From the IMG/VR virus record IMGVR_UViG_3300009790_000062, positions 1-24,954 of that record: 24,954 nucleotides of DNA. The stretch is one strand, 5' to 3'. Below the pieces are notes generated by a model. That model ran no database searches. It was not told where the DNA came from and was given only the letters and a program-made list of their open reading frames with translations. This stretch comes from a virus. This document shows, in pieces, positions 367 through 22,800 of this stretch. A program made the position numbers and the translations under genes. The first letter of the stretch is position 1. Each line of letters starts with the position of its first letter.

Positions 367-1208
367 CAGTACGATCCTCCATCGATTAATCCAGCAGTTA
401 ATGTTCCATCCACATAAGCATCTGCTGTAAATGTTGCAATTGCACCAAATGTAGCAATACCAGCAGTTACTACTAAACCACCAGTAGTAGCTCTAAATCC
501 TTTACCAGCAGTAACTAATCCAACAGAATCAACATTTGTTACATCTTCATAAGTAACTGTTCCACCAACTGAAAGATTACCACCAATTGAAAGACTATCA
601 GTTAAACCATCAAATGTAAATCCTGCACTATCTCTTAAAGTAGACCCTGTTCCAACAAAAGGAACACGAGTTGCTGTTAAAACACTTAGTGTAGATAGAC
701 CTGTGATATTTAGTGATTGTGCAGATATGTTATCAAGAACGATATCATCACTCAGGAATAAGTCACCACTAACATAAAGATCTCCAGTAACTGTAGCACC
801 AGTGGAGATCGTTTCAAATACTCTTGTTGTTCCATTATACAGTTCTGCTGTACCACCATATCCAATTCTTAAAGCACCTGCTCCAAGTTCACTTAAGTAA
901 CTATTAGAACCATCATTATAAATTTCTAATTGAGTTGAAGCAGTACCAAATTTTAGTTTTGAACCTGAATTATAGAGAAAGGAATTATCACTTGCATCCC
1001 ATGATGCAGTAACTATACCAGCAACACCCTTAAAGTGTATATCTCCAGCAAATGTTGATATTCCAGTGTTAACATCTAAGGTTGATACTGAAGCAATACC
1101 ACCAACTACATTTTGTGCGGTGATAGCAGTAAGAGCCTCACCACCAGATGCACTGGACAGTATCTTTACAGTATTCTGTTGGCCAACTCTTACTCTAATA
1201 TCTGCCAT
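366..1208 (-). CDS. Fibre-like virion structural protein, 280 residues
   Basis: The protein starts MADIRVRVGQQNTVKILSSA and is rich in Gly, Ser, Thr and Val with almost no charged helix, as expected for a beta-structured fibre or decoration protein. Short repeats such as 'DLYVSGDLFLSDDI' and 'SLSIGGNLSVGGTVTYED' resemble the rungs of trimeric phage fibre beta-helices. The stretch NVDSVGLVTAGKGF recurs, as far as I recall, in structural proteins of marine T4-like cyanophages. The gene lies immediately before gp13, the position of wac (fibritin, the whisker protein) in T4. No fibritin-like heptads or foldon are visible, so that role is only positional inference. The ATG at 1208 has a GAGG 8 bases upstream and follows the previous stop by 2 bases; the TGA overlaps the gp13 ATG. 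A virion structural role is likely; the exact location in the particle is unknown. Confidence 0.8.
   Translation of the reverse strand: MADIRVRVGQQNTVKILSSASGGEALTAITAQNVVGGIASVSTLDVNTGISTFAGDIHFKGVAGIVTASWDASDNSFLYNSGSKLKFGTASTQLEIYNDGSNSYLSELGAGALRIGYGGTAELYNGTTRVFETISTGATVTGDLYVSGDLFLSDDIVLDNISAQSLNITGLSTLSVLTATRVPFVGTGSTLRDSAGFTFDGLTDSLSIGGNLSVGGTVTYEDVTNVDSVGLVTAGKGFRATTGGLVVTAGIATFGAIATFTADAYVDGTLTAGLIDGGSY
376..380 (-). promoter_or_regulatory. Shine-Dalgarno site of gp13
   Basis: GGAGG on the minus strand lies 9 bases upstream of the gp13 ATG (366-364), inside the last codons of the preceding gene. It is the strongest ribosome binding site in the window and fixes the gp13 start. Confidence 0.8.
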
Positions 1209-1210
1209 TA

Positions 1211-1552
1211 TTAGATCCTCGTTACTCCTTCTCTAACTAAGACATTCCCTTCAACGACTCTTTCCGTCACACCTCCTTTTGTAATAAGAATATCATAAAC
1301 ATATCTACCAGCTTTTAATGCTGCAGTAGTTGTAGACGTTAACTCCAATAGAATTATTCCCTCTAATGGGGTAGGAATAGAAGCAACAAAATCTGTAGCT
1401 GCAGACGCACCTGCCCACTTTCTCATTTGAGAATTAACGGTATACCCACTCAAATTTAAAGCAGCATTATTATCTGTAGATTCTAAATTAAAAGTTTGTT
1501 GAAATGTGGATCCTGTATTTACTACAAGATTATTAACGTATACTGCAGCCAT
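1211..1552 (-). CDS. Small beta-rich virion protein, 113 residues
   Basis: The protein starts MAAVYVNNLVVNTGSTFQQT and contains 'LNLSGYTVNSQMRKW' in the middle and 'AGRYVYDILIT' plus 'RVVEGNVLVREGV' near the end. The alternating hydrophobic pattern and the 'L-x-G-Y/T-v-x-x-q-h-R' centre fit a single immunoglobulin-like or BppU N-terminal-like beta sandwich, a fold used in baseplate and fibre attachment. I recognise near-identical small proteins from marine T4-like phages but know no demonstrated role. It is the first gene after a TATAAATA late promoter box and is followed after 2 bases by the fibre-like gene, so the two are probably co-expressed. No strong Shine-Dalgarno lies close to the ATG; GAGGG sits about 17 bases upstream, farther than ideal. 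Confidence 0.75.
   Translation of the reverse strand: MAAVYVNNLVVNTGSTFQQTFNLESTDNNAALNLSGYTVNSQMRKWAGASAATDFVASIPTPLEGIILLELTSTTTAALKAGRYVYDILITKGGVTERVVEGNVLVREGVTRI
1217..1220 (-). promoter_or_regulatory. Shine-Dalgarno site of the 280-residue gene
   Basis: GAGG on the minus strand lies 8 bases before the ATG at 1208-1206 and overlaps the end of the 113-residue gene. It supports the chosen start and suggests translation coupled to the gene before it. Confidence 0.65.
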
Positions 1553-1579
1553 GTATTTACGAGAAGAATCCCTCTACCT

Positions 1580-1587
1580 TATTTATA
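1580..1587 (-). promoter_or_regulatory. T4-type late promoter box TATAAATA
   Basis: An exact TATAAATA on the minus strand lies in the 41-base gap between the 69- and 113-residue genes. In T4-like phages this octamer is the late promoter element read by the sigma-like gp55 with the gp45 clamp. With T4 spacing, transcription would start near 1574, about 22 bases before the ATG at 1552. It would give the 113-residue, 280-residue and neck genes their own late transcript start. Confidence 0.75.
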
Positions 1588-1593
1588 GGAGTA

Positions 1594-1803
1594 CTAAACG
1601 CTATTCTTATTAGTTAAGTTTTTAAGTAAATCCTTTATTTCGTCCAGTTCATTCTTTAATCTGTCTATCTCCTTTTTTTGAGAATCAACAGCTTGTATTT
1701 TAACTAATCTATGCTTATATTCTGCATCATTGCAGTTTATAATAGCACCAGTAGTTTCATCACGAAATAAACCTTTATAATTTAAAACTTTAACATACTC
1801 CAT
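1594..1803 (-). CDS. Small protein with C-terminal coiled coil, 69 residues
   Basis: The N-terminal half contains 'GLFRDETTGAIINCNDAEY', a pattern I have seen in small unannotated proteins of marine T4-like phages. Residues 40 to 65 form a charged amphipathic helix with heptad-like hydrophobics (I, L, L, I, L, L) typical of a short coiled coil, so the protein probably oligomerises or binds a helical partner. The ATG overlaps the stop of the DUF4815-type gene (TAATG) and no Shine-Dalgarno is visible, which suggests translation by re-initiation after the large upstream gene. Function unknown; a small chaperone or linker for the neighbouring fibre proteins would fit the position but has no direct support. 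Confidence 0.75.
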   Translation of the reverse strand: MEYVKVLNYKGLFRDETTGAIINCNDAEYKHRLVKIQAVDSQKKEIDRLKNELDEIKDLLKNLTNKNSV

Positions 1804-4800
1804 TATTTAACAGCAATAGTACGAATATCACTAATCTTAACTGGTTGAGCTTGGTTAGTAGAAGACATTACAACCTTAATTACATATCCATTAAATTCAC
1901 CAAGATTATCTGCAGTAAATTCATATTCCTTGTATTCCCCATATAGACTTGGTGTAACCTGTGCATCAGGTAAACCACTATTAAGTGCCTCATCTATCAC
2001 TTGATTACCTAGACCATCTCCAGTTGTATCCTTAAGATTATCATATCCAGGGAATAATTCAAATTCCTGTAATATTTCCATAGAATCAGGTTTTTGTAAG
2101 GAATAAAGAACTCTAAAGTCTGCGTCTGCTCCCCTATATGCAGTAATAAGTACCTTCAAGGAATCAGCAGTCTTGTTAAGTTTGATTAATCTAGACACAT
2201 AAACTGCAGAATGAGGATCTTCAGTATGAGTTTTAACCTCTCCATTTTCAGGATAATTTGAAACAGGATTATCTATCATATTTGTTCCAAGTTGCGAATA
2301 AGCAACATCTGTATAGATTATTGGAGAGACATTCTGATTTTGAGTTTGAAGTGTTATTCCTGTAGTAAATGATTTATTTCTTTCAATATTACCCAAATAA
2401 GTAGTTTCATTTATTCGAGAACATACTATTCTTGGACTGGTTAAGTCATTAGGAGTATTAAGTTGAACAGGTTGGAATCCTTTGTCTTCGAATGAGACTT
2501 CAGCACCACCAACACTTGTTCCTGTTACAGTTCTAATAGATGCTTTAGAACTGACCATAGGTGATGGTGTAACGATGTTATAGCAAGGAGTTACCGTCTC
2601 AAACTGTATATTCATAGTTCCCCTAGCAAAATCTCCACCAGCAAAGCCATCTTCAGTGAATGATAATTCTGGATTAGCAACTGCATCAGCACTTCTATTT
2701 TTACCACCACTAGTGGTATTGAATCCAACATAATAATGATTTAATCCAATATCTATTGGAGATATTTGATGAGTAAAGTTATTAATTCTTCGTAAAGAAA
2801 CACCATTTAATTCATACTTCTCTAGTGGTTCACCAGCACTATATGATGTTACGATAGTAGAATCTACACCACGAATTATATCATCTAAAGATCCATTTCC
2901 TACTGATCTATAACCAATAATTTCATCACCAATTCTTACATAACCAGTACTTCCAATACCAATAGGTGCACCTTCAAAAGTAGAGAATCCAACAGTAGAT
3001 CCAACACTAATAGATGATGCACTTACACCCACATCTAGCGAAAGTAAAGATATTTCAGCATTAGCTGCAATATCAAATAGTTGTAATTTATTATTAGTGG
3101 CATGCATACCATGATTAAAGTGAGATACTCTAAAGTGCTTACCATCATATACTCCACCATCAAGTGTTAAATCTGAAGCAAGAACAGGGCCACTACCAGT
3201 AGAAGCATTTTGTACTAATCCACTTACAGGATCAACATATCTAAAGTCTTCAGTATCTTTAAATGATCCTGTAGCAGATGTTCCCTGAATACCTGAAAGG
3301 TATAATGTATCAAGGCCGCTATTTTCCTCAATAGTTAAGAAAGCACCAACACCTACACTTCCAGAAACATCAGCAGTTACAATACCTACAACATCACCAA
3401 CTTTATAACCTTTTGCTGTACCAGCTGTTGTAAATCCAGTAATTGCTCCAGTTGAGTCAACGGCATTAATGTTAATCTCAAATCCTTCACCATTTCCTAC
3501 AATATTATAGGTACTAACAGCACTAAGAGTATTATTATACCCCGATCCACCTCTAGCAATAGTTGCATTAGTTACGGAAGCACCAGTACCAACAATGTAT
3601 GCATGAACAGCATCATTTGTAGATCCTAGAATTTTTGTACCTGGTACGAAAGTTGTAAGACCAGCATGTCCTGAGGCAAGATTGGTAATATTAATTCTAC
3701 CAGTCCTAGCTAATGTGGTTATTGGATTACTATCAAGTAAACGTATATAATCATTACTTTCACTTAAAGTTGGATTAGAGAAGTATGCAGTTCCTTCGGA
3801 AGGTTTGAATTTTGCTTTATACAATTTCATCTTCATATCTTCCATCTGACTTGGTGACCAGATAGATCCATTCTGGGATTTATAAAGACTACCTAATGCC
3901 CATTGTTGAGTATAGATTATAGTAGAACCACCAACACCATCACCAGTAGCACCACCAATAACATTTTCACCCATTCTAGCAATCCAGACTTCATACTGAT
4001 CAGTAGTTGTTGCAAGAAGAACTATTGCATATTCTTTTCCTGCTTCTAAGTAAACTGGTTCTTTAAATTTAACATTAGTTGCAACTGATCCATCTTCTGA
4101 AGTTGTTATATCATCAGGATAGATTACTTCACCAAGGTTAAGATTAGTTAGAGTCGGTGTTCCTAACTCCACAGTTCTTACCTGAACAACACATGGATTA
4201 CTTTGTCCTGTTGTTGGTTTTTTTGCAAAGAATAAATCAATAGAAGTTAAAAATGCCCCATGCTGATCATCATCTAAGTTTATATTAGAACTTTGTATGG
4301 TAGAAGAATCAGGTGCTTGTATATTGCTCGCAACGGCAAATGACTGAGCGAGAGGGTCAGATCTATGTCCTTGATATGTCCTTGTAATGGTAGTAACCTG
4401 AGTTGTAACCGTTTTATCAATATCTTGGTATTGTATTTCACGGAATCTACCCATAGATTGGAAACCAATTTCTGCTGAAGAAATTAATTTACTTCCTTTA
4501 AGTTGTTTCGCATTAGTTGGATCTCCAGTAATTTTATATTCAGCTTCACCAGATGGAATTACAACACTAGGTTGTGGATCAACAAAAGGATCTCTCAAGA
4601 ACCAACATCCTTGCAAATCGCCATAGTTATCACTAACTAATCTTAAATCTTTAACATAAGCAACTGCACCACTTGTCTGACCAACTAATTTTGCACCCAT
4701 AACTACATAACCAGAATATTCTCCTTGTGCCTTTTCTGATAGAGCAAAACAATCAACGTTCAATACTTTAGAAGAACTTGTATATATTGATTGGAACTGT

Positions 4801-7800
4801 TCTGCAGGTTTGTATGGAAGATATGTATAAACATTTGTTGGAGCATTATATGGGCCTGCTTTATGATTTTGATTAGCAACTCTGAAATTAATAATTCTCG
4901 TAGTGCCCATATAACCTATTACTTCTTCCCCAACTTGGAATACTCCACTAGATCCATAATTTTCTAAAGTACTATCATTTGATATTTCCAATAATTTTGG
5001 AATAAAGTCCATACCACTTTGACCATCCATGAATTGATAGTGTTGTGTTGTTGGTTTTAGTAGTTTAGCATCAAATGTAGTGTTTCTAGATCTCATATAT
5101 TGATCATCACCACTTGATGTTATAACATCACCTTTGAAATGTGTTCTCCTAACTTCAGTAGATGTACTTCTAGTAGTTCCTGGAGCTCCATTAGACCAGT
5201 AGTAATAAGACCAGAACCAACTAGTCCACCTTCTCCTTTGTGTCCAACGAACAACTTCATCTGTTCTTCTCTTATTTTCCTGAACGACTGCAGTCATAGG
5301 ATCCAGTCTAATAGTTCTAAGCCAACTATCACTTATTGGTGTTAAGTCAACAAGACCCTCAAATGAAATAACATGGAATGGGTTAACATTCTCTACTCTA
5401 GTTGCAAGTGGTTGATTTATCCATGGAACTTCATCATAATCTAAAAGTACTGAGTTACCACGTTTTACAACATTACCATCTAAAAGAGCAAAATTTTCTG
5501 ATCTATCTAATTCACTATCAACAATATTAGAAGATGGCATTAAAGCACTTTCAAGACTATTTTGTCCAATAATAGGTCTTATTTCTCCAACTTGAGAATC
5601 AACACCTACAGAAGAGTATTCAAGATCAATATTATCATTATTCTGGAAATCATCAACAAAAAATCCACTCTTAAATCTATCATTACCCTGAGCATCTTGT
5701 ATTTTTAATGCTTCTGTATTTACTTCAAGTAATGATAATGTAGTTGTTCTTTCTAAACCCTCGATTCTATTTTCCAACTTACCAATATCACGCATTGTAT
5801 ATCTTTTATTATCAGTAAGATAGATATCAGCATCACCTGGATTGTAAAGATATGCTGGATACGCTATCGTAGCCAACTCCATCATTGAAGTGCTATTAAC
5901 TGCTGGAGGTAATGGATCTCTTTCTGATTGACCTTCAATTACTGATAATGTACCATTCTTATCAATGTACAATTTATCAATTCTAGGGAGATAGTAATCA
6001 TACCCCAAAATAGATTGCTCATTAGGTGCTAATAAAAATTTTGGTTCAACATTAAATTGTGTTGTTCTAGCATCAAAAGCAAATGGAGATACTGTATTAC
6101 TAGTAAAATCTGGTACTCTAGGTCTAAAATCTAATGTATCCGTTGCCCTTACTTGATCAATACCAATTGTGGGTATATTTTTATTATATCTTGCTTTATC
6201 ATAACTCATTACAGTAAATACATCTCCCTGATCACCAGTAGGAACAACGTACTTATCAAATACGATTACCATCCTTCTAGATGGTATAGCATAATTTCTT
6301 TTTCTAACAAGTCTTGAATAATCATAGAATTGATCTCTCTGACCTTCATCTAAAGTAAATGATCTTGAAATATCTTGATATTTACCATCTCCTTCAGTAG
6401 TATTAATTCCTTCAACATTAGTAGTTATATTTGACTCTGTAAATTTAACAACTTCATTTACTCGAAATGTTCTATCATTTAGATATACAATACCTAATCT
6501 ATTAGCTCCACCAGAAGAAGGAGAAGATCCATTATTTGTAACTACTCTAGCAATAGCATTAGAACTTTGACCTGCAATATCTTCACCAATAATTGCATTT
6601 GTTGCGACAGCTGCCGTAGCACTAAATGTTATAACGTCAAAAGTTGGTTGTTCTTCATTAGTTGTTTCACGAACTGCTACAATATTTGCAACATCAGGTA
6701 CATTTAAAGATATCTCTCTATCTTGTACTCTTAATCCATATGCATATGGATTCCAAGTTAATCCATCTTGAATACCAGTACCAATACCAGATTGTTGTAA
6801 TTTAGATGCGGTTACTTCTACAATATTACTCTTAACATAATTTTTGACTTTACTCTGAATACCTTGTTTAACTGCAGTTACATTAGCAACAGTGTTAGCA
6901 TCAGTAGCATTTAATCCCCCAATTACAACTTGAGATCCACCACCATTATATGAGAAATTACCACGTTTTACTCCAGCTACTCCATTAGTAGATCCATAAT
7001 GAATAGAATATCTATGTGCAGAATAAGAATCAAAAAATGCTGTACTAATTCCAGCTCCACTACCATCTTTAACACCAGGTGTTCCAGATATATCTAAAGT
7101 TGTTGTAGAAGATGCAATACCTTCACCAGTAATTTGTGCAGTGATTGTTAATGAAGAACTCTTAAAATCAACAGAAGAAATATTAATATCTGGTAATGAT
7201 GTATATAAAGAACCTTGATCACTTTCTTTAACAGAAGGTGCACCAACAGAAATATCTACAGTTCCACTAGTATTAATAGGTGTTCCACTGAATATTCCAG
7301 CAACACTTACACCCAAAGCACCAAGAGTTACAGCAGAACCATCAGCAGAAATAGCATCTACATTTGCAAATATTTCATCACCATCTCCTTGAGAATATCT
7401 AATTATAGTATTAGTTGTAATACCAGTAAATACTGAACCTGGTGATCTTAATGTTAGTCCAGTGTTGGTTACGATTCCTACTTTTATTCCATTAGGTAAA
7501 GGGAATTTTTCTAAAAATGCAAATCCAACAAAGTCTTGTGTGTAAGCACCTGTTGCTGTTTGCTTAACAGACTTAACATCTTTAATACCAAATGCTTTTA
7601 CAGTGAGGGTTTGTACAGCAATAGAATTACCCTGAATTATAAGGGGCTCATTTGATAAAAATCGGCCAGATGTTTGCTCTACAAAAAGATCATTTCCTGT
7701 ACCACTAGTACCACCATTACCAGCTCCAGCAGAATTCCATACATAACCAGTTGCACCACTATGTGCACCTCTTATATGATAAGAATGTAATACTTCAGTT

Positions 7801-9206
7801 GCTGAAAGTGCTCTATTTAATGATAATCTAGTAAATGTTTGAACATCATATAGATATAAATTCCATTTTGATGCATCACCAACATATTCAGCAGAATTTA
7901 AACTGAGATTATATACTCTTGCTCTTCCTATTTCTAAAGTTGATGCTGAATATCCATTATATAATGCAATTTCTTTTCTATACTGAGGTTGTCCTGTAAC
8001 TTTTTGAAGTTGCATTCTATTCCCCATTGAGAAGGGAACACCAGCAGCATTTATAGTTTCAGTATCTCTTGGTTTAGGAACATCCAATATAGTTGTATTA
8101 CCCGTATCAATTTGATATCCCCTAACATATGCTGTTCCACCACCAACTCTTAGACATGCTAAATCATCTGATGGGGTAGCTCCTTCATCTGTTTTCTGAT
8201 CAGCAAAGTATACTCCCGCATTTCCTAATCTATCATTTAATGAATTATTAATTTTTATATTAAATGGTGCTACAGTATAGTTTCCAGATTCTTCATATGT
8301 TCTTTCTGCCATATAATCTTGGATTATATTATAACTACTTTTCTCTTGAATTTTTCTTTTATCACCATTAACAACCTTTAAAACTTCAACAAAATCAGAA
8401 TCATTATAATCATCTGTTGATTTCTTACTAAGACTTAATCCAATTTTAAATCTATCAGCACCAGGAGCAGCATAATTAGTGAATCCTTGTGCATTATCAT
8501 ATAATGATGGATCATCTTTTGCACCAATTATTAATTCATCAATTTTTAAACCAACCCTATATGATGGAGTATTTGTATAATAATCTAAGATTAGTGTTTG
8601 CTTAGTTACATTGACAAAAGTACCTCTAATAAAATAGACACCATCAGCTATAGAAACTGCAGCTCCTGTAGCAGTTGCATCACTGGATATTAATGTTGCA
8701 ACTTCCTGTCCTTCACTAATGGTAGTATTACCATAAACTACATTTTCTTTTGCTATTAATGACTCACCATTTGCAAATGTATCAAGTGTGAAATTATCAG
8801 GACTGGATCCCTCATAATTTACATATAGTGTTAAGTATTCAACATCAACTCCATTAGGTAGTACAACTTGTTGTACAGTTGCAGTTACCCCAGAACTTCT
8901 ACCCTCTATAACTTTACCTACAAGTTGACTAGCATAAATTGAAACATCAATTCCAAACTGTAATGGACTTAATTTTACAGCACTATATTGATCATCATAA
9001 GTAATTCCACCAGGAATTACAACAGATCCTTCTTTAAAAATATGACTACCAAATTGCTCTACCTGATTTTGCAATATAGATTGCAAAGTCGTAAGTTCTC
9101 TAGCTTGAACTGGATATCCTGGTTTAAATAAAACCTTGTAAAAATTCTTACTAGAATCATAATCGTCATAGTAAGGACTGATATTTAAATCTTTTTTCTG
9201 AGCCAT
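1803..9206 (-). CDS. Very large DUF4815-type virion structural protein, 2,467 residues
   Basis: Residues about 8 to 80 (ISPYYDDYDSSKNFYKVLF, then PVQARELTTLQSILQNQVEQ and GSVVIPGG) are the hallmark of DUF4815 proteins of T4-like cyanophages. Further landmarks are DTLDFRPRVPDF near residue 1030; a short coiled coil with TMRDIGKLENRIEGLE at about 1136-1160, followed by 'RFKSGFFVDDF'; a Trp/Tyr-rich patch at about 1328-1338; SDPLAQSFAV near 1615, followed by a beta sandwich with 'YLEAGKEYAIVLL'; and a GGSGY module near residues 1880-1960. There is no signal peptide or membrane segment. It follows gp8 by 6 bases, in the slot of T4 genes 9 to 12 (baseplate fibre attachment, tail pins, short tail fibres), so it is likely a baseplate-attached fibre or spike component. 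The family name is from memory; the exact place in the virion is inference. Confidence 0.85.
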   Translation of the reverse strand: MAQKKDLNISPYYDDYDSSKNFYKVLFKPGYPVQARELTTLQSILQNQVEQFGSHIFKEGSVVIPGGITYDDQYSAVKLSPLQFGIDVSIYASQLVGKVIEGRSSGVTATVQQVVLPNGVDVEYLTLYVNYEGSSPDNFTLDTFANGESLIAKENVVYGNTTISEGQEVATLISSDATATGAAVSIADGVYFIRGTFVNVTKQTLILDYYTNTPSYRVGLKIDELIIGAKDDPSLYDNAQGFTNYAAPGADRFKIGLSLSKKSTDDYNDSDFVEVLKVVNGDKRKIQEKSSYNIIQDYMAERTYEESGNYTVAPFNIKINNSLNDRLGNAGVYFADQKTDEGATPSDDLACLRVGGGTAYVRGYQIDTGNTTILDVPKPRDTETINAAGVPFSMGNRMQLQKVTGQPQYRKEIALYNGYSASTLEIGRARVYNLSLNSAEYVGDASKWNLYLYDVQTFTRLSLNRALSATEVLHSYHIRGAHSGATGYVWNSAGAGNGGTSGTGNDLFVEQTSGRFLSNEPLIIQGNSIAVQTLTVKAFGIKDVKSVKQTATGAYTQDFVGFAFLEKFPLPNGIKVGIVTNTGLTLRSPGSVFTGITTNTIIRYSQGDGDEIFANVDAISADGSAVTLGALGVSVAGIFSGTPINTSGTVDISVGAPSVKESDQGSLYTSLPDINISSVDFKSSSLTITAQITGEGIASSTTTLDISGTPGVKDGSGAGISTAFFDSYSAHRYSIHYGSTNGVAGVKRGNFSYNGGGSQVVIGGLNATDANTVANVTAVKQGIQSKVKNYVKSNIVEVTASKLQQSGIGTGIQDGLTWNPYAYGLRVQDREISLNVPDVANIVAVRETTNEEQPTFDVITFSATAAVATNAIIGEDIAGQSSNAIARVVTNNGSSPSSGGANRLGIVYLNDRTFRVNEVVKFTESNITTNVEGINTTEGDGKYQDISRSFTLDEGQRDQFYDYSRLVRKRNYAIPSRRMVIVFDKYVVPTGDQGDVFTVMSYDKARYNKNIPTIGIDQVRATDTLDFRPRVPDFTSNTVSPFAFDARTTQFNVEPKFLLAPNEQSILGYDYYLPRIDKLYIDKNGTLSVIEGQSERDPLPPAVNSTSMMELATIAYPAYLYNPGDADIYLTDNKRYTMRDIGKLENRIEGLERTTTLSLLEVNTEALKIQDAQGNDRFKSGFFVDDFQNNDNIDLEYSSVGVDSQVGEIRPIIGQNSLESALMPSSNIVDSELDRSENFALLDGNVVKRGNSVLLDYDEVPWINQPLATRVENVNPFHVISFEGLVDLTPISDSWLRTIRLDPMTAVVQENKRRTDEVVRWTQRRRWTSWFWSYYYWSNGAPGTTRSTSTEVRRTHFKGDVITSSGDDQYMRSRNTTFDAKLLKPTTQHYQFMDGQSGMDFIPKLLEISNDSTLENYGSSGVFQVGEEVIGYMGTTRIINFRVANQNHKAGPYNAPTNVYTYLPYKPAEQFQSIYTSSSKVLNVDCFALSEKAQGEYSGYVVMGAKLVGQTSGAVAYVKDLRLVSDNYGDLQGCWFLRDPFVDPQPSVVIPSGEAEYKITGDPTNAKQLKGSKLISSAEIGFQSMGRFREIQYQDIDKTVTTQVTTITRTYQGHRSDPLAQSFAVASNIQAPDSSTIQSSNINLDDDQHGAFLTSIDLFFAKKPTTGQSNPCVVQVRTVELGTPTLTNLNLGEVIYPDDITTSEDGSVATNVKFKEPVYLEAGKEYAIVLLATTTDQYEVWIARMGENVIGGATGDGVGGSTIIYTQQWALGSLYKSQNGSIWSPSQMEDMKMKLYKAKFKPSEGTAYFSNPTLSESNDYIRLLDSNPITTLARTGRINITNLASGHAGLTTFVPGTKILGSTNDAVHAYIVGTGASVTNATIARGGSGYNNTLSAVSTYNIVGNGEGFEININAVDSTGAITGFTTAGTAKGYKVGDVVGIVTADVSGSVGVGAFLTIEENSGLDTLYLSGIQGTSATGSFKDTEDFRYVDPVSGLVQNASTGSGPVLASDLTLDGGVYDGKHFRVSHFNHGMHATNNKLQLFDIAANAEISLLSLDVGVSASSISVGSTVGFSTFEGAPIGIGSTGYVRIGDEIIGYRSVGNGSLDDIIRGVDSTIVTSYSAGEPLEKYELNGVSLRRINNFTHQISPIDIGLNHYYVGFNTTSGGKNRSADAVANPELSFTEDGFAGGDFARGTMNIQFETVTPCYNIVTPSPMVSSKASIRTVTGTSVGGAEVSFEDKGFQPVQLNTPNDLTSPRIVCSRINETTYLGNIERNKSFTTGITLQTQNQNVSPIIYTDVAYSQLGTNMIDNPVSNYPENGEVKTHTEDPHSAVYVSRLIKLNKTADSLKVLITAYRGADADFRVLYSLQKPDSMEILQEFELFPGYDNLKDTTGDGLGNQVIDEALNSGLPDAQVTPSLYGEYKEYEFTADNLGEFNGYVIKVVMSSTNQAQPVKISDIRTIAVK
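3320..3570 (-). repeat. GGSGY module within the DUF4815-type protein
   Basis: The encoded stretch has 'ATIARGGSGYNN', then 'GNGEGFEININAV', 'GAITGFTTAGTAKGYKVGD' and VGVGAFLTIEE. The order GGSGY / short beta strands / G-x-G / second GxGY is the same as in gp8 (9940-10115) and several places in the giant protein, so this looks like a portable beta module repeated across neighbouring virion genes. Confidence 0.6.
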
Positions 9207-10832: not shown

Positions 10833-13800
10833 TTAAGATGTTGGATCGACAGCCCCACTATCTCTAAAACCTTCTAACCTTCTCTGTATTGTTGGGAAGG
10901 TAGTTAGACCAGAATTAACGGTTAAACCACTAACACCAATTGCTATTGGATTACCTGCACTTCTGGCAATTGTTCCACTCAATCTACCCATTGAGAAGTA
11001 TCCTGCTGGATTATTTGCCCAAGCACCTGTAGTACTGAGTCCAGTATGTACAGTATCAGATTTAATGTTACATATCAAAATTGAAGTAGTACCACTATAT
11101 CCTCCATGATTACCACTAATGTTGTAAACATTGTCTAAGAATTCTGTTCCTATACCAATTATTTCACTATCAGAATCATATATTGAAGTTACACCTGTTC
11201 CTATCTGTGTATCAAAAACACTAATTGGACGGCCATCTGCTAAGACAGTAAGACCACCAGCAGAGTATACTTCAAACATCAATGCTAAACCACTAGATGA
11301 TCCTGCTTTGGTAGTTGTACCAATTCCTGTAATAGATCCAGTAATATCTTGAACAGCAGTAATATTACTTACTAATTCAGATTTATATAATGGTAATGGT
11401 GCTATAACTTTAGGTACATTGGTAGAAGTGTATCCAAATCCTGCGTTTGTAATTGAAGTACCTGAGATAACTCCATTTGTTATAGTAGCAGTAGCAGTAG
11501 CAGTAGTTCCAATACCAACACCAATACCACTTGTTGGTATTCCAACTGATAGATTGGTTGAAGCACCAACATATCCAAGACCACCATCTACAATGGTAAA
11601 TCCTGATAATTGACCAGAAGCATTGATTGTAGCAGTTAAAGATGCAGCACGAGGTTCTGGAATTGTATTATCTACAATAAATCCACCAATAGGTTTGGAA
11701 GGAAGATCTCCTTCATAATTAAATATGGATGCATTATCAACAAATATTTGGCCAGTTTCTGTAGAAGATAGATCTCTTATAATCTTCGCTGTTGGGAAGA
11801 CTAATGGTTCTGTTATACTTCTTGCTTTAGAAACAACTTGACCACCGATAATTTTATCAACTTTTTGTTTAGTCCAACTAAACTGCTTTCTTTCACTAGT
11901 AATTCCTGGCCCAGTATAGAAACTAGTTTCTATTCTATCAGAATCAACAATCGCTTCGATTGTTCTATCGGTCTGATTTAATTTATCCGACTCCATTCTC
12001 AATAGTTCAATAATATCACCAGGTTTTAGTGTTTCTTTAATATCAGTAATTAGAAGAGTATCTTCACCATCAGTTCCACGATAGAAGAATATACTTACAT
12101 CGTCAGTTGCTCTAGGTGCTTCCCTAAAGACGAATGATGTTCCTCCATCAAAGTCATATGCAACTCCTGGTTCTTGAATAGCACCATTAATAATAATTAA
12201 TAATGCATTTGAAAGATTCATTTCAGGGAATGCTGGAGTATCTTCAGATTCAAATGCTAATAATGAACCATCATATTTTAATTCAAATCTTGTCTTAGAT
12301 CCATCTTGCTGATTTTTAATAGAATCAATGTAATCAAATTGTCCGAATTGCCATGCTGCAAACGAATCATTATGAATATCAACTGCAGTGAATATTGCAG
12401 GAGTCACTATTTCTCGTAAATTAGAGTCTGTAACTAAACCAACAGGTGTAAACTGATCACCTCTTCTAAATCCATAGCCACTTCTAGTAAGTCCATATTC
12501 AGTCATTTCACCATAAGGTAGATCACTAAAGGTTGTTACTCCAACAAAGACCTTAATAGTATCAGTATCTACAATTTCAGTGATAGCAATACTCTGACCA
12601 GATACAGGATCTGATGTACGTGGATAATCATGCTCACTGTTGAAGTTATCTCTACCACATGTAAAGGTTAAAGAATCATTAGCAATCTGAATTGTATTAG
12701 CACCTGATAAACCATGAGCACCAGTAAATGATAATTCAAGAATACCCGTTGATGGAATATATCCAGCATCAGAAACAGTCAAGGTTCCACCAATACTTCT
12801 AGTTACTGAATTGATACCAGCACTTACAAACTGATGCTCATCTCCACGAGGACGTTGACCCATACCAACATTAACTAATAAACCTGATCCAGTATTTGTA
12901 GTTGGGCCTTCACCTAATCTTGATATACCAGTAACTTCAAGATTACTATATGAAGGTTCTGGAATAATTAAACTAGGATTAATATAATTTGTACCAGCAG
13001 CACCAACACTAAGATCTAATCTTGCTCCAGTTCCTGATGGTGATTTACCTACATTAACCGTAAATTTATTTACAGCAAATACTTGTTCAACACCTATGGT
13101 TGCATTATGTACAGGATCTTTCTTAGGTCTAGGATAAGTATGAAGATCAAGATGATTGTTCTTAGCACATGTGAATGTTAAACCACCAGTAGTGAATCCA
13201 ACAGTATTATTTGCTTTCTGGATTCCACTAGCAGCTGCAGATACAAATGTATGTGTTGAAGTATTTGTAGATGGTACTCTCTTAAGACAATTAACTTGGA
13301 AAGTAGCAAAAGATGCATTACTAATTGGAATCCACTTATTATGGATAGGATCACCAGGTCTTGGATAAGTATGCTGTGTAGCATTACCATCCAATGTACA
13401 TGTAAAGGTTAGAGAATTCTCTTCAATCTTAATTAAGTCTCCATTTGACCATCCATGAGCACCACCTACAGTCTCAATTTCTAAAATACCTGTAGTTGGG
13501 TTGTAAGTAGTACCTGCTTTTGCTGTATTGATTCCTGATTGAGTGAATCCATGACTTCCTGTAGTTGTTACTGTTAATATTCCACTTGAAGGATCATATT
13601 CAGTACCAGTAGTTGCTGTAAATGGGCCACCTGCATTTGCAGTAATTGATCCTACACCAGCAGTTATAAAGTTATGCTTATTATATTCTACGATTGATGC
13701 ATTTATTACACCATTAGTACCAACACTAGATCCAACGAATACATCAAATGAAGTTGCATCAGATGAAATAACATCTGTACAGATACCTACAACTGGATCC

Positions 13801-16800
13801 GATAAACGAGGATACGCATGATCTGTTCTGTGATTATCTTTATCGCAAGTAAATGTAAGAGATTCTGTTACAATTCCTATTCTATTGTTGTTAGCAGTAA
13901 CAGCAGTCATGGCTTCTTCACCAACTACTACTTTCAATACACCACTTCCACCTTCATAAGTGGAATCAAGTACATCAAGTGTTGAATTTGTTGTTACTCC
14001 AACAAATATACTGAATGAAGTAGGCCCAGTTGTACCAACACCAACAACTTTACTGTATGAAATATTAAGAGGATCTTTTCCTAATCTTGGATATGTGTGA
14101 ACAGATTGATTATCATCTCTACCACATGTAAATGCTAATGAATCAGTCTTAATTCCAATCTCATCAACTGACTTAGTAAGTGGTTGAGATGCTGATACAA
14201 ATGTATGAATACCTGCATTTATATCTCCTGCAACTCCAACATAAACAGCAAATGTATTAACACCTACTTGCTGAATTGGTAACCACTGACTTCCAGTTTC
14301 ATCTTTATCTGCAGAACTAAATCTTGGATAGTAATGATCTGTTGCATGATTATCAAGAGCACATGTAAATCTTAATGAATTTTCTGCAATCTTAACATAT
14401 TCTCCAGTCTGCCAACCATGGCCTGTAACTGTTAAATCTAAGTATCCAGTTGTAGGATTGTATCCAGCATCAGCAATTGTATGAGTAGTTGGTGAATTGA
14501 AATTATGGGATGCTACAAAGAAGGTAACAATACCTGTTCCAGGACTGTACTCTGCATATGGACTAGTAATAGTAGTAGTTACATTAGGTGATGAACCTAC
14601 ATTTAATTCAACTGTAGTTGTAGTAGGAACAGTAACTGCAGTGTTAACTCCAGCAATAGGATCTGATACACGAGGATATGCATGTTCTGTAGCATTATTA
14701 TCTCTATCACAAGTAAATGTTAATGCACCTCTGTCTATATTAATTTGCTGACCACCACTAATTCCATGAGCATTTGCAAAGGTTATTTGCAATACACCAG
14801 TAGATCCTGTGTATGCTGCTCCAACGGGAGTTAATTTACCACCACCAGTAACCTTAGTAACAGAATCAGTAACACCACTAACGAAGGTATGATTATAATT
14901 TCCACCACTGTATACTGCGTTTGCAAGATCACTAGAACCACTTACAAATGAATGTCCATAATCACCACCAATTTCTATAGCATTACTTGTAGCACTTACA
15001 AATTTATGATCATATGGTGAATCGGTAATTCCTATAGAAACAGATCCCCTATAAGCAGAACCATATGTTGCATCTCCATACCATGGAAGTGCATATCCTC
15101 TACCAAGATATCGGTGAGGTATAGAGTTAACACCTACATTAGTAGTAAATCTATATCTTGGTAACTTACCAACATCCAATGTAATTGTGCTTGTAGTTAC
15201 TGATGTTATACCAATAACTGAACCATCCCCTGCAGGATCTCCATAACGTGGATAATCATGAATAGTTGCATACTCATCCATTGAGCACTTGAATCCTAAT
15301 GATTCTGTCTTGATTCCAACAGTTTTACCAACTTTCTTGAGAATACCATTAGTTGCACCACTTATAAAGGTATGTGCATATTGATCTGCAGTATCTGCGG
15401 CTGCACCAACATATACAGTAAATGTGTTTATAGTGTATACATGAACTGCTAACCATTTAGCATGAGCAGGATCATTTACTCTTGGGTATGAATGTTCTGT
15501 AGCATTACTATCTTTTGCACAAGTAAATGTTAAACAACCATCTGTTAATAAGACTCTATCACCAGTAACAAGACCATGACCATTACTAGTAACTACTAAT
15601 CGTCCAGTTGTCTGTGTATAAGTCGCATTAGTTGCTGTTATTGGGGATGCAGCACTATACCCATGGCCTGACCCTACAGTCAATTCTACCTGACCAGTTA
15701 CGGGAATATAGGTTGCAGCAGTTACGTTCTTCTCAGAGGCAGGAGACGTGCCTACAGGGACTTCAATAGTTGTTCCGTTTGGTACCGTTGCGGTTAATGT
15801 TTGTCCATATGCAGGATCACTTGGTCTAGGATATCTATGTTCTGTTTGGAAATTATCTCTAGAGCATTTGAAAATTAATGAAGCATTATCAATTGTTAAA
15901 GTATTACCATTAGAAACACCATGAGCAGAACCAAATGTTAATGTAAGAACTCCAGTATTAGCATTATAATCTCCACCATTTGGAGTCTTTTGATTTCCAG
16001 ACTCTGGGCCACTCGTAATATTAACTGCATTACTATCTGCAGATACAAATGTATGTGCAAAATCACCACCAGAATAAAGAGCACTAGTTGCAGTACCTAC
16101 AAATTGATGAGTGTAATCTCTTTCATCTACATCTAAAATTGTATAATCTTCACTAGTACTTGTTAATCCTACAGGATACTTAGGATAGATTGTAGTTGTT
16201 ATACCAGAGAATCCACTATTGATTATTACTGCATCAGTTCCTACACCTACAAATTGATGTATAGAATCTGTTCCAGTACCAACATTAATGGTTATGGTTT
16301 CAGCAGTTCTTTCAATAATTGGTGTAGCTATTCCAGCAATAGGATCTGTACCATGACGTGGATATGAATGATAAGAGGAATACCCATCCTGTGAACATGT
16401 AAATGTTAATGAATTGGTTGCAATACCAACACTCTGGCCTACACCTAAAGCATTAGCACCAATTGTTAATACTAAATTACCAGTAGTTTGTTGATAAACT
16501 GCATTAGATACACTATAACTATCATTACAAGTAAAGGAAAGACCAACTAATTTAACTTGTTTAACAACACCAGATGCAAAATAAGTGGGATTAAGTGTAG
16601 TAAGTTCTAATTCACCAGTAACATTATCATAATCTGCAGCTGTAATTGGATTCTTAGTTGATGCAACAGTTGGGAATCCAACAATACTAGTAATACTACC
16701 AGCAGCATCAGTTTCAACATATGCTTTTGCTGGTACTGGAACAGCATATCCTAATCCTGGTGTAGATCCAAGAGAAATTAACACACCACCTCTTGGTAGT

Positions 16801-19800
16801 TGGTTTTGGTTTACATCAGCATCACTGATATAAACATCTCCTGTAGCAGATGCTATACCTGTAAAGACAACACTACTAATTCCAACACTAACGTCTTCTT
16901 CAATTTCAAAATTATTATCTGGATTATTTGCAGCAGATGGTTTCTGGAAGATATTACCAATAAGAACTAATCCACTACCACCAGTACTTCCTAGACCAAC
17001 AGTATTTGCACCACCAACTCTTAATCTGAATTTTGTATCAAGTCCAGTAAATTCATCTGTTATATCATCATATATTTGGTTAGTATTATAATCATTCCTT
17101 AAGAATGCACGTCCAGTAAATGATGATGTTGGGAAAGGTAAATTACCTGCATCTTTCTCTACCTGAGGGTTTCCTCTAGGAGAATCTGTAAAGTATATTT
17201 CCTTACCAACAATTTGATATGAACCCCTATAAAGTTGAACAGTTGAGGTATTTGCATGAGCTGATGGTGGTGAACCAACGAATGATCGTTCAACTTGAAT
17301 AAGAGATGTTGTTCCAATTCCAGTAATTGGGCCATCTGTTTCAGTACCTATTCCAAGATTGAGAATCTTCATATACTCTTCACCAACCTTCACAATATCA
17401 TCAGGGCCAAGAGATGAAATACCACTAAGTGAGAACGTGGTTGCAGTAGTACCTATACCTAATGTTCCAGCACCATCAATATCTTCTGTATTATTCTGAA
17501 GACTGAATGCAATTGGATTATATGCTAATGGGGATTGTATTAAATTATCAATAGTAATGACTGCTTTTGTATTAGCAAGAGCCATTTGGAATTCATGTGC
17601 ATTTCCTGTACCAATACCAACAAATGTAACACCAGTACCAGCAAGTGCTAATGTCTTAGTAGTTGCTATCTGGAATGAATCACTACCATCTCTAATAGCA
17701 AATACAGGACTTGTTAATGAATTAATTCCACCGCCACTATCTACATATTGCATTGGAGTAGATCCAACACCAACAAATGTTGAATTTGGTTTGTATATTA
17801 ATTCTTCTGCGGTTCTAAACCAATGATTGGTAATGTTAAATGTACCTGATGTAAGATTAACTACATCTGTTAAAGAAGGATCAAATGTCTTAGCAAAAAT
17901 TGGAGTACTTTCAGAGGTTAATGTAAAATTCTTTCTATTAATCCTATCACCATTAATTGCATTATAGAAGAATAGTTTAAGATTTTCTCTTCCACTACCA
18001 AAGTCAAGGTCTGTAGTAAGTAATTCATTAAGTGTATCTAATGGGCCATACATACAGAGATTTAATGAAGATACTTGAATTTCAGTAGCTGTATATGCAG
18101 AATCTGGAATAAACTCAAGTTGTAGTTGATTACCATTAAATTTACCGTTGAAGGATCCTATTCCCGACATAGAATCTGAAACAGATGTACTACCAACAGA
18201 TATGAATGGTGATGGTTGTGTATAAACATCACCAGTATCATGCATTAAATATACTTGATGCAATGCTTTGGTTGATCCAGCACTAACTTCAATAACAGAC
18301 TTAACTGCATTAAAGTCAGTGTTACGGATTGAGAATACATTTCTTGTTCCAGTACCAGTAGCATAATCAGACTGATAAAGAGCAGTTTGTTCAGATCCTG
18401 GAGGTTGACCAGGTGCTAAGAATCTATAAGTTCCAACTCCAACAGCTGTTGTACCAAATCCAACTATTTTAGATTTAAGTTGTATTTTGTCTGTTGAATC
18501 ATTTTTATATTCAACTATTAACTCATTTCCATAACCAGAATCTGTTGAGAATCCTACTTCAAATTCACCCATCAAAGTATTTGAATACATTCCAACATCA
18601 GAATGTGTATCAACAAAATATTCAGAAGTATATGTATTTTCACCATCATGTGTAACATATAATTCTAAGTAATTTTGTTCATTTGTTGTTTCATTTAATA
18701 AATGATTTTGTAAATGTAATGAACTATATTTCTCAGAATTTAAACCAACAATTCTTGTAGTTGTTATTCCTGCTGAAAGAGTTGTAGCAATACCAACAGA
18801 ACCAGTTATATTAACAAATCCTACTGCATATGTACCTACACCTGCAAGTTCATTGAATTGTGTTCTAATAACCTTAACATCATAGTCAGTGTTATATGCA
18901 TCTGGTAAAGGAATAAATCTAAGGTAACTATCTCCAAGAGAAGTTTCTTGAACATCAAAAGTTCCAATAGATGTTTCATCATTTAATTTCTGCTTCTCTA
19001 ATAATACAGATTCTGTCCCAAAATTATTCAATAGAACCAAATCTGATGTTTGAATATCAGTTTGATCTAGATTAGTAACTCTAACAAACAAAGATTCAAA
19101 AGTATTAACCTGAGAAGCTTCTATTTCAAATAAATTTAAAAACTCACTTGGTTCACCATCTAAGTTTGAGAATTGTCTATTAATATCATCTACTATCAAA
19201 ACTTGATTACTCTTTCCAAGTAAGTAGGATGATAATCTCTTATTTTCAACTTCAACAAATTTAGATGCTTTACCAGTTAAAGCTAGATTACCAACAGTGC
19301 TATTATATTCCAAATCAAATGCAGTAGTCCAATTATAAAGTGTATCTACTCTTTCATCACCTGTTAGATCAATAATAGAAGTTGATTGATCTGTACTACC
19401 AACTCCAGATACTACTGTTGTTGATGTAATTCCTGTATCTGCAAAGTTCTTAAGGCCTGCAGTATGAAGTAATCCATTTACTGGACTTCTTAATGTGCTA
19501 TATTCTTGACTACTCTTAACTGTATATGAAAGATTTTGGAAATAATCATTGTCAGGAAGTACTTGATTATCTAAATTTAATTTTCCAGTATCATTAGTCC
19601 AACCAATATCCTTTTTAGCCGCATAACTTACAGAATATTTTCCAAGGTTTTCAGTAAGACTAACAATAGCAGCTATTGTTCCAGAGTCCTTTCCAACAAT
19701 AACTTCACCAGGACTTAATTCATAAGTTCCAAAAACTTTAATAAAGTCAGGATTTCTTGCATCATCTTCAGTTGAAGTAATAAATAAATCTCTTACAACC

Positions 19801-22800
19801 TCGTTTGAAACTATTTGTTCCCCAACAATAAATTGTGATGGATATTGATATGTTGTAAATGTTGGATAATTATTCCTATTAATGATTACTGCTAAAGATC
19901 CCTGATCAGTAACAGCAACACCACAATTTGTTGTGAATTCAGTTGCATCAAGGGTTACTGAATCTGTCGTACCTGTTGTATATGCTATAACTTTAGGGAA
20001 TCTGTAACCTAATTCTATAGAGTTAAATCCAGTACCAGCAGTACCAACTTTAACCATATTTTCTATAAAGACCTCATCACCTACTTTAAATGGAAGTGGA
20101 GAGTATCCTACTGATGGAGTTGAGATATAGCAAGTAAATATTCCAGTATTATTACTAGTAACCGTTTTAATACCAATACCATTAGTATTATTAATTGTAT
20201 ATAATTCTACAGGTACTTCTGGTAATCCAGATGGAGCTACAACTACTTCAACATTTCCTATTGCAGGGCCTGTTAATGTTGCTTCTAATAAACCAGAATT
20301 AATTCTCTGCCTTGTAGTTGGATTTACCATTAATACATTTGGAGCAGATAGATAACCATCACCACCATTAGTAACAGTAACTACACCTATTGTATTTGAA
20401 TTTTCAACAACAATTAAAGGTGAAATAAATGCATTTGGTTTTAAAGTTTTATCGGATGAATACTCAAACCCTTCATTAATTATTCTTACCTGATTTGCAT
20501 TACCAATTGATTTTGAAGCAGGAATAATATATGCACCTGATCCTGTGGTAGTAGTACCAATTCCACTAAAACTAGGCAATCTCTTATACCCAAATCCACT
20601 AAAATTAACATCTGCCTTAGCAACACCACCAAATGCTGTTAAAGACGTTGTAGTATAATCTAAAGAACTAATTTCATATGAATAATCTAATCTTTCTGGA
20701 ATTTGTTTTAAAGAAATATCAAATGTTGTAGATCCTGTAGCAATAACATTATAACTATCGTTATATAAACTATCTGAGAAATTAATTAATGAATGATCTT
20801 CAACTTGAGTATCTGCAGTACTAATAAATCCACCCTTCTCTAAGTTATAATATAACTCAGATGGAAGCATACTATCATAATTTAAAGTCTTAGTTGCAAG
20901 GGTACCAATACCAGCCGTTCCAACACCTGTTATAGTAAATGCAGATGCACCTGTATATCCAGTAGAAACAAATTCATTCTTAAACTGATTATCATAATAG
21001 AATTTAAGATTATATCCCTCTAAAGACGGATCAACTATATCAAATATTAAATTACTATTTCCAACAGTAAATAGGGATGGATTTATTAAGGAAAGAGATT
21101 GTGTGGATCCTCCAGTATCAGCCATTCCAACCACAATAGGTGGATTGGTATAAGCATCTTTAGATGATTCAGTTAATTTAATAACATCATCATTAACTTT
21201 AAATACAAAGTAACTACCAGTTGATAATCCACTAGCAACATCATTGGCCTCATAGAAAACTATATCTCCTGTTTTTAATCCATGCTCACTTAAAGTTATT
21301 TCATTAGTTATTGAATTAATTCCAGTATTATTAAAATTAATAGGATTAACTAAAATATGTCCAGTATCTGCATTTCTCTTAAGTCTTACACCTGTGGATG
21401 TTCCTATACCAACTGAAAGATTAGATTTAACTTCTAAATCAACCTGATCACCTACAACTAACCCATGAGTAAATGCTGTAGAAATAGAAACAGTTGAAAT
21501 AATTTCTTGTGTCGTTGCTAATACTTGCTCAAATTTAGTAGTAATTAAATAATTATTATAGTTAGTACCACCACCAATGAAATATACATCTGAGAAACCT
21601 ATACCAACACCAGTTTTTATACCAATATAATTAACACCTCTATTTGTAACAAATACTTCTTGTGGTAAATTATAACTAGAAGTATTAGAACTATTAGCAA
21701 TAGATATTTGTGCTGCTCCACCAGGAACTGAAACAGTTACTGGTTCATTATTTGTAAACTTATGATTTGGTAAGTAAATTGTTTGAGTTGGAATATTTCT
21801 TGTAATTGTAGTACTTCCAAATCCAAAAGTTGATGAATGTGTAATACCAGATGTAGTACCAAAACCAACTTGCTGAATTGGGTTGAAATATGCAATATTG
21901 TTTAATTTTGACTCAAAATGAGGTACAACCTTAGGAATAGTAAATGAATCAGGTACTATATTAACTTTACTTCCTGCATCATGTGAAACACCTGCAGAAG
22001 CTCTATTTGCCTTTATTATTTTCTCAGTTGGGTATATTTCTAAAACTTGCATTGTTTCAGAACCAACTACAATGCTATTACCTATACCTAACGACGTAGG
22101 TACTGATGAGACATATAATTCACTTGCATTTGGTATAGATCCAACTGTAGGTACTTGTGCAATTAGTTGAGTACTTCCTGTTACTATACCAATTTGATAT
22201 CTTCCATTTACTTCAGTTAAAACTGTAGATAGTCCAGAAATAACAACATTATCACCATTAACTAAAGAATGTTGAGGTAAAATATTAATCCGAACACTAT
22301 CAGGATTCCAAGTTAATATTGAATTATTAAAAGAAGTAACGGCCGTTTGGACATCAATAATAGGTCTTCCTTTCAAAGAAGAAATTTTACTTATTAATCC
22401 TTCACCACTTGTTCCTTCCTCATTAAATATTAATCCTTGATTTATTTGATAATTATCACCAGAATCAACAATATTTAATTCATCAATGCTACCCAATGTA
22501 ACTGATTCTATTACTGCCTTCTGATTGGAAATTTCATTGGTTTCAATAATGAAGTCATTATCAATATCTTTTTCAGCAACTCTATATGGAAATGTATTCC
22601 TAATAAGATTATTTGTTGCATAATCATAATCCTGAGTTAAAACCTGTTCTTGTGGAATAGATCTATAACTATCTCCTATAAAATATGGGAACGCTGGTTT
22701 ATTTTGAGAACTACTATCTTTTATAGTTGCATAATAAGCATAAATTCCATCTGGAAACTCAGGAGTTTTTCCAAAACGACCATTATTTAAATCCAAATCA

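Follow-up and report, generated by a model that had tools for sequence, protein, structure and literature searches.

A variable array of predicted small beta-barrel modules in a giant baseplate-wedge protein of a likely T4-like cyanophage

Module array in a giant virion protein

We analyzed 24,954 nucleotides of viral DNA, positions 1 to 24,954 of the IMG/VR record IMGVR_UViG_3300009790_000062 (the window throughout this paper), in which a giant open reading frame (ORF) on the minus strand (10833..24953) encodes eleven copies of a short module with the motif C-x8-H-x-YPR. The ORF occupies the gp7 slot of a baseplate operon and its product belongs to PHROG 2885, a baseplate wedge subunit. The array would form a string of small beta-barrels inside this giant protein. 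Its modules have apparently been gained, lost and reshuffled between cyanophages, all at one variable site that is framed by conserved N- and C-terminal parts. The phages S-T4 and S-SKS1 lack the modules; S-T4 has another Cys-bearing repeat at this place and the S-SKS1 gene changes frame near it, and the array was therefore assigned to a variable site. We tentatively favor an evolvable multi-barrel baseplate arm, most likely making many weak contacts with glycans of the host surface.

Existing annotations call homologues structural or baseplate wedge proteins, and PHROG families already include the module. New are the definition of the module as a likely barrel, the joining grammar of its subtypes and its mosaic history. 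The giant cyanophage proteins reach 7312 amino acids (aa) in P-SSM4, and in the examined records their annotation goes no further than structural protein or baseplate wedge. A defined part of one such protein can now be broken down into modules that can be counted, with a joining grammar, a predicted fold and a variable site. The module array thereby provides a testable link to glycan contact and a concrete target for how T4-like cyanophages meet their hosts.

Eleven cores in one open frame

The initial annotation had described eleven cores of 19 codons at 12618-16412 in the order C-A-B-C-A-B-C-A*-B-C-A. All eleven were recovered on the minus strand in one open frame, reading from the N- to the C-terminus C1 (16356..16412), A1 (15825..15881), B1 (15480..15536), C2 (15246..15302), A2 (14670..14726), B2 (14322..14378), C3 (14085..14141), A3* (13806..13862), B3 (13359..13415), C4 (13128..13184) and A4 (12618..12674). 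The length of 19 codons fits [SAG]-L/I-x-F-[TK] followed by C-x8-H-x-YPR. Using a DNA pattern of the core, 11 matches were found on the minus and 0 on the plus strand (reversed-pattern control 0 and 1), and a longer degenerate pattern gave 4 matches in the window versus 0 in 100 shuffles, which argues against chance. All 11 cores were retained in 8 of 18 related loci (L009-L014, L016, L017) at distances within 8 aa of those in the window, while nine other related loci end at contig or locus edges and hold 1 to 10 cores.

The core-to-core distances were 177, 115, 78, 192, 116, 79, 93, 149, 77 and 170 aa from the N- to the C-terminus. The proposed B to C spacing of 231-237 bp held in all three cases, and A to B measured 345, 348 and 447 bp, thus 345-348 bp in two of three as described. 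A whole unit of 1.1-1.2 kb did not apply to the middle unit (A2-A3* 864 bp, B2-B3 963 bp, C3-C4 957 bp). Only 2 of 11550 arrangements of four A, three B and four C copies are strictly period-3; this rarity is not independent evidence, as the A/B/C labels were partly derived from the spacing itself. Distinct flanks had been described for each subtype; C1 is mixed and combines a C-like core with an upstream Y-x-TG hairpin. Over the 38-residue core C1 was closest to C2 (50%) and then C3 (45%), while over 101 residues it scored 148 against A2 and at best 125 against any C copy.

Occurrence and conserved residues of the module

With a module profile, 825 ORFs from 148 records were searched, of which 146 contained the module, with 697 copies in total; these records were picked for the module or its relatives and partly overlap, hence the count does not represent a natural frequency. 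By profile, S-T4 and S-SKS1 had 0 modules and seven other phage records between 3 and 12. The maximum of 21 modules, spaced in an individual pattern, was reached in an ORF fragment of 4593 aa (L039, IMGVR_UViG_3300012953_004005). Searching a phage collection by tblastn with the 1433-aa array region, we obtained matches in 330 of 50,697 records, named Synechococcus (250), Cyanophage (49), Prochlorococcus (22) and Marine (9). Beyond the phage collections the DNA pattern was found in 24 stretches of genome contigs, mostly from marine metagenome bins and including one Prochlorococcus record and one contaminating phage in an isolate genome. The latter, the 188,235-bp contig NZ_RMVE01000006.1 (L168) of Nonlabens xiamenensis 1Q3, is probably a contaminating cyanophage genome, because an 8000-base piece of it was 98.7% identical over its full length to P-TIM40 (188,632 bp). 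In Prochlorococcus sp. AG-418-C09 the module lies on the 189,106-bp contig QCLS01000003.1 (L170, L173, L181), which judging by its size may be a cyanophage genome as well.

That the module corresponds to no named domain proved right for Pfam and NCBIfam, where no entry was found, and wrong for PHROG, where families 1276, 701, 5342 and 18802 contain it. All nine tested modules matched each of these four families at E 0.1 or better, with a best E of 5.1e-16 for single modules against PHROG 1276. A literature search, which covered few subscription papers, found no published account of the module.

Conservation was scored in 394 non-redundant copies (75% identity), with rows of <45 filled columns dropped. 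Pro (100%), Cys (99%), Tyr (95%), Arg (94%) and Phe (89%) were conserved, as were the Asp after YPR (95%) and the Asp three residues after Cys (91%); the His was found in only 76% and replaced by Lys in 16%. We are aware that both the profile and the DNA pattern include Cys and His, which biases these figures upward; the His falls nevertheless. As the His is not invariant, C-x8-H-x-YPR is, judged from these alignments, one variant of a broader motif C...YPR..D. A metal site formed by Cys and His was considered and disfavored, since the His falls to 76% (Lys 16%) and some modules lose the His-bearing loop.

Predicted fold

Two segments of the array were modeled with AlphaFold2. For the pair B3-C4 (12981..13529, minus strand) an alignment of 48 sequences was used, which held only pairs with an H-x-[FYW] linker and from which 2 of 50 rows had been removed beforehand; the model reached a pLDDT of 90 and a pTM of 0.81. 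The block A2-B2-C3 (13938..14846, minus strand) was modeled from 20 sequences with a pLDDT of 74 and a pTM of 0.62. The module repeat of about 60-85 residues was predicted to be mostly beta. In both models the list of VIA fold matches was headed by E1 FCCH domains (best Z 7.6 for B3-C4 and 7.8 for A2-B2-C3). Endosialidase barrels followed from rank 23 for B3-C4 (Z 6.3-6.8, 76-81 residues, rmsd 2.2-2.5) and from rank 3 for A2-B2-C3 (Z 7.3-7.8, 77-82 residues, rmsd 1.9-2.4). Tail proteins of T1, FCWL1 and N4, siderophore-interacting proteins and riboflavin synthase were also listed, mostly at lower rank. The modules with fold matches were B3 and B2; the matches did not reach C4. Foldseek gave 22 viral matches at E 0.001 or better, and all named ones came from Synechococcus phages.

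At the sequence level, the window protein matched neither PF12195 (endosialidase barrel) nor PF16190 (E1 FCCH) at E 0.1, and the gathering score was not reached. PF12195 matched one of nine single modules (E 0.039) and 3 of 48 module pairs (best E 0.0017), and PF16190 likewise one of nine (E 0.019) and 3 of 48 (best E 0.0085). The carbohydrate-binding family PF14262 matched 6 of the 48 pairs, and 13 further Pfam families appeared among them, 12 in one pair and one in two. Using hhalign, the module profile was aligned to the whole K1F tailspike at residues 441-465, within the barrel range 427-508 if K1F numbering is the same (E 0.0035, probability 9%; two control proteins E 0.58 and 0.51). Two candidate relatives in the PDB were treated as chance matches, namely iota-carbonic anhydrase (E 1.2e-4 and 0.0036 over 41 residues, single-domain E >=10) and a pleiotropic regulator (E 0.8). 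The module is thus predicted to be a small beta-barrel resembling those of E1 FCCH and endosialidases, with an extra hairpin FTC...YPR..DP. The matched barrels seem to be without this hairpin, as can be inferred only from 70-82 residues aligning over model spans of about 108.

Joining grammar of the subtypes

The spacing of 488 distinct neighbor pairs peaked at 85-87 aa (98 pairs) and 73-80 aa (87 pairs); minor groups were seen around 59-63, 97-103 and 114-117 aa. Pairs at 77-80 aa mostly went without the Y-x-TG hairpin (43 of 47) and with an HxFV segment (46 of 47), while those at 85-87 aa mostly showed the hairpin (81 of 98) and no HxFV (86 of 98). Among pairs up to 105 aa, hairpin and HxFV tended toward mutual exclusion (odds ratio 0.15; Fisher p 4e-15, indicative only, as the rows are related). 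In the B3-C4 model, strands 93-98 and 103-105 of the HxFV segment precede the C core where the TG hairpin would sit, a placement read from predicted secondary structure only. Modules A, B and C1 would accordingly open with a Y-x-TG-x-L hairpin of their own, and C2, C3 and C4 seem to borrow their first strands from the HxFV segment after the previous module. These two joining modes would account for most of the subtype difference.

Possible role of the array

Because modules appear to have been gained, lost and shuffled at one variable site, the array could give the baseplate a tunable arm or a tunable outer layer, and its likeliest use would be many weak contacts with cyanobacterial surface glycans during adsorption. 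We infer both the exposure on the baseplate and the glycan contact, the contact because of the likeness to known barrels and the polysialic-acid site of the K1F barrel. This barrel holds one of three polysialic-acid sites, and host discrimination resides in its loops, according to a 2025 preprint (PMC12632334). A natural module exchange would look like the locus L025 (IMGVR_UViG_3300005430_000712; 1-1030), where 157 of 159 residues (98.7%) from A2 to late B2 were identical to the window; past a break in B2 come two different modules, at spacings of 84 and 86 aa, and then the C-terminal part, and the rest of the window array is skipped. S-CREM2 ORF122 was found in virions with 91 unique peptides (Table 3 of PMC10665884). 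By order and size, we take ORF122 for the gene of the giant-protein slot. Cyanophage evolution experiments are reported to have yielded mutations in baseplate and tail-fiber genes (PMC6224464, PMC9910659); S-TIM4 ORF101, a homologue of the giant protein, is not named in the main text of PMC6224464.

Several observations weigh against such an arm. The ratio of nonsynonymous to synonymous substitution rates (dN/dS) was 0.32-0.39 in the array versus 0.16-0.46 in other regions (five overlapping close pairs), and the hairpin was under tighter constraint than the rest of the module in all five pairs. S-T4 and S-SKS1, without YPR modules, share the recorded host WH7803 with the module-bearing Syn30; therefore, the modules are not needed for that host. 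As to the fold, all VIA matches remained at Z <8, which according to the tool possibly indicates just a common arrangement, and they reached B-type modules only. Foldseek found no match in the PDB at E 0.001 or better and listed ATP synthase and TrmO barrels as well, and the Pfam matches to the modules were weak. The joining grammar was blurred by pairs at 72-76 aa, which were mixed (hairpin 25 of 43, HxFV 31 of 43). Finally, L025 comes from a 4.6 kb metagenome contig and may be an assembly chimera. A rapidly evolving host-range region was discarded as an explanation, since the dN/dS of the array is not raised.

It is also possible, although we rate it lower, that the modules are inert spacers, a rigid barrel stack which only sets the length or stiffness of the arm while other parts bind. 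Such a stack agrees with the even purifying selection along the array, with the module number and near-exact spacing kept in the eight relatives holding all 11 cores, with the wide variation of module number between phages, with the quantized spacings and with the matching barrels in the T1 tail tube. However, a spacer would hardly need a hairpin with Y-P-R at 94-100%, D at 95% and Cys at 99%, and this conserved hairpin seems, by inference only, to be missing from the matched barrels.

Origin and history of the array

The order of the subtypes had been explained by duplication of a three-module block, with the three subtypes already different before amplification. A tree of the window copies showed weakly supported clades of A (79/88) and B (77/88) without resolving the C copies (approximately unbiased (AU) test, p 0.30). 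For the opposite case, clustering of adjacent copies, the triplets A1B1C2 and A2B2C3 were tested as clades and both rejected (AU p 0.014 each). Together with the A and B clades, this supports subtypes distinct before amplification. In a 50-row tree (window, six named phage records, L025 and L017, without L025_m1 and L025_m2) A formed one clade (95/95), while B and C were found in two separate wider groups including modules of other phages. With B as a single clade the AU p was 0.060 and with C it was 0.184; a pairing of A3* and C3, at 0.298, was not rejected. The 52-row run including L025_m1 and L025_m2 joined A3* to C3 (99/90), which the 50-row run does not; module alignments of 73-76 columns are unstable.

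Duplication of a block was partly supported, as the A copies are for the most part nearest to one another, and not as a simple triplication, since B and C copies are often nearer to modules of other phages. For a best-match test, 122 records outside the lineage supplied 527 modules; a maximum over 527 favors outsiders, yet A paralogues can win. The best same-type copy was outscored by 0, 1, 3 and 0 outside modules for A1, A2, A3* and A4, by 84, 28 and 88 for B1, B2 and B3, and by 308, 41, 8 and 63 for C1, C2, C3 and C4. B3 and C4 had their best matches in the same foreign record (L076), in two modules with a spacing of 77 aa. A total of 50 A-B-C-like spacing triples, some without the A-hairpin-B-C order, were found in 28 records, and 18 of them in 16 records outside the window lineage (once in 14 records, twice in 2). 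In a tree of whole blocks, which left out 4 blocks without A-hairpin-B-C order by eye and the L009 blocks, each block grouped 100/100 with its own orthologue in the relatives. Blocks 2 and 3 were separated by a distance of 1.27, with the nearest foreign blocks at 1.17-1.31, and a single origin gave an AU p of 0.157. The DNA identity between short pieces of window copies was only 60-86% (60% being the floor of the tool), therefore the duplications are, as far as sequence can tell, old.

That a single A-B-C block was triplicated recently within this lineage of phages is unlikely in our view. The single A clade with its mostly mutual best matches, the strict period-3 order and a single origin of the three blocks that was not rejected speak for it. 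The many foreign modules that are closer to the B and C copies than these copies are among themselves, the separate orthologue of each block in relatives, the A-B-C-like triples outside the lineage and the low DNA identity between copies speak against it. In our reading, the B-C unit and the subtypes would be old and shared and A would have spread inside this lineage, so that the strict A-B-C order would be partly inherited and partly assembled.

The conserved cysteine

A cross-linked sheath, in which the module Cys would form bonds between neighboring chains or modules and keep the baseplate stiff up to contraction, appears improbable. In its favor, 391 non-redundant modules were scored for the Cys and 99% had it; among all 697 matched positions it stood at 656. 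The proteins are otherwise Cys-poor (elsewhere 0.318 per 100 aa), and of the 21 Cys in the 4706 aa of the window protein, 11 belong to the cores. A precedent exists in phage Milano, where a disulfide network is described to block tail contraction (PMC10811340). Against it, each core has a single Cys and the pairing partner was not identified, and the 99% are biased upward, as profile and pattern contain Cys. A combination with the adhesion arm is the most speculative proposal and very unlikely: a covalently lockable multivalent arm, whose barrels would show the FTC...YPR hairpin, whose Cys would cross-link chains, and whose barrels would be traded from an ocean-wide pool to retune reach and valency.

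Gene neighborhood and virus

The array gene belongs to a T4-like cyanophage baseplate operon, in which it directly precedes gp8. The giant ORF stops at 10833 and encodes at least 4706 aa, its 5' part running past the end of the window and the N-terminus lying outside. In an intact relative (L157, the 152 kb IMG/VR record behind L017) the gene encodes 5301 aa; in P-SSM4, P-RSM4 and S-T4 the same slot encodes proteins of 7312, 6603 and 4749 aa, respectively. The conserved N-terminal part before the array (16704..24953, minus strand) was 36% identical over about 3000 aa when a relative (P0003) was compared with S-T4, and the C-terminal part after the array (10833..12473, minus strand) was 42% identical. 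The N-terminal part includes a YHYH domain (PF14240; 22719..23003, minus strand, E 4.9e-24). The truncated window protein matched 7 PHROG families at E 0.1 or better, with 2697 bits for PHROG 2885 (residues 6-3097 on profile positions 591-3599 of 4179).

Downstream, Pfam matches identified the baseplate wedge protein gp8 (PF09215; 9213..10799, minus strand) and a virion protein of 2467 aa (1803..9206, minus strand) of the VrlC/DUF4815 type, the name VrlC being taken from the same place in P-SSM4, P-RSM4 and S-T4. A head-tail adaptor fragment is also encoded in the window, as found with Pfam and PHROG profiles. A 280-aa protein (366-1208, minus strand) showed weak matches to tail-fiber and baseplate PHROGs; its gene is flanked by a 113-aa gene resembling L-shaped-fiber assembly genes and by the head-tail adaptor gene. 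In the intact relative (L157/L158) the order was gp25 (PF04965), a 644-aa PHROG 219 wedge protein in the place of gp6, the giant gene, gp8 (PHROG 438) and the VrlC-type ORF (2466 aa, PHROG 358). In P-SSM4, P-RSM4 and S-T4 the giant gene is preceded by gp6 and followed by gp8 and VrlC, with intervening genes in P-SSM4 and P-RSM4. Residues ~223-291 of the gp8 of the relative (L157:19022-19900) matched three PHROGs of the giant protein, 2885, 701 and 5342 (E 1e-6 to 5e-5); a small domain may thus be common to both proteins.

Among 474 phage records matching gp8 the best was S-SKS1 (58.5%). The 12 best matches listed comprised 10 cyanophage and 2 unassigned marine virus records, and the names of the 474 were mostly Synechococcus, Prochlorococcus or cyanophage, with 16 otherwise. 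Four relative records were searched for a photosystem II reaction-centre gene, which is present in one of them, that of 152 kb. Because of the closest gp8 and this photosystem II gene, the virus is most likely a T4-like cyanophage.

Comparison with known systems

The top fold match of both models, E1 FCCH (PF16190), comes from an unrelated context and matches weakly in sequence. We know of no tandem array of endosialidase barrels. The endosialidase barrel (PF12195; K1F, phi92) shares with the module an HG-x3-GD strand (hhalign) and a context of phage adsorption, and may resemble it in the predicted fold (Z 6.3-7.8). Unlike the window array, endosialidases are described with a single barrel in a trimeric enzyme with propeller and stalk (PMC12632334). 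PHROG 1276 has unknown function with no fold given, and 701, 5342 and 18802 are named only virion structural or tail fiber protein.

T4 gp7 occupies the same operon slot with 1032 aa versus at least 4706 aa in the window, and the truncated window protein did not match PHROG 964, the family of T4 gp7, at E 0.1. A profile of the N-terminal 500 aa (L157:3076-4575) was aligned by hhalign to T4 gp7 723-757 over 35 residues with E 0.002 and a probability of 14% (controls T4 gp10 E 0.16, T4 gp6 E 0.58), and T4 gp7 against the PHROG 2885 profile gave E 1.3e-4. T4 gp7 is stated to be absent from such phages (PMC7029224), against which this N-terminal likeness weakly speaks.

The closest counterparts are P-SSM4 gp7, P-RSM4 PRSM4_106 and S-T4 gp197 (PHROG 2885), encoded in the same slot with gp6 before and gp8 after. 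S-T4 and S-SKS1 showed no module by profile at E 0.01 or better, though the N- and C-terminal parts are homologous (36% and 42% in S-T4 gp197). In S-SKS1 (L028:6212-16820) the gp7-slot gene is annotated piecemeal, a long upstream stretch that matches the N-terminus of the giant protein carries no annotation, and a change of frame occurs near the position that the array occupies in relatives. S-T4 (L029) carries at the array site, residues ~3560-4060 of 4749 aa, a sister repeat FSC...GVTTTIFPDGT...HTYVSGG, in which the Cys is kept and FPD replaces YPR. P-SSM4 and P-RSM4 carry the same module as the window, in P-SSM4 with 12 copies by profile and spacings unlike those of the window.

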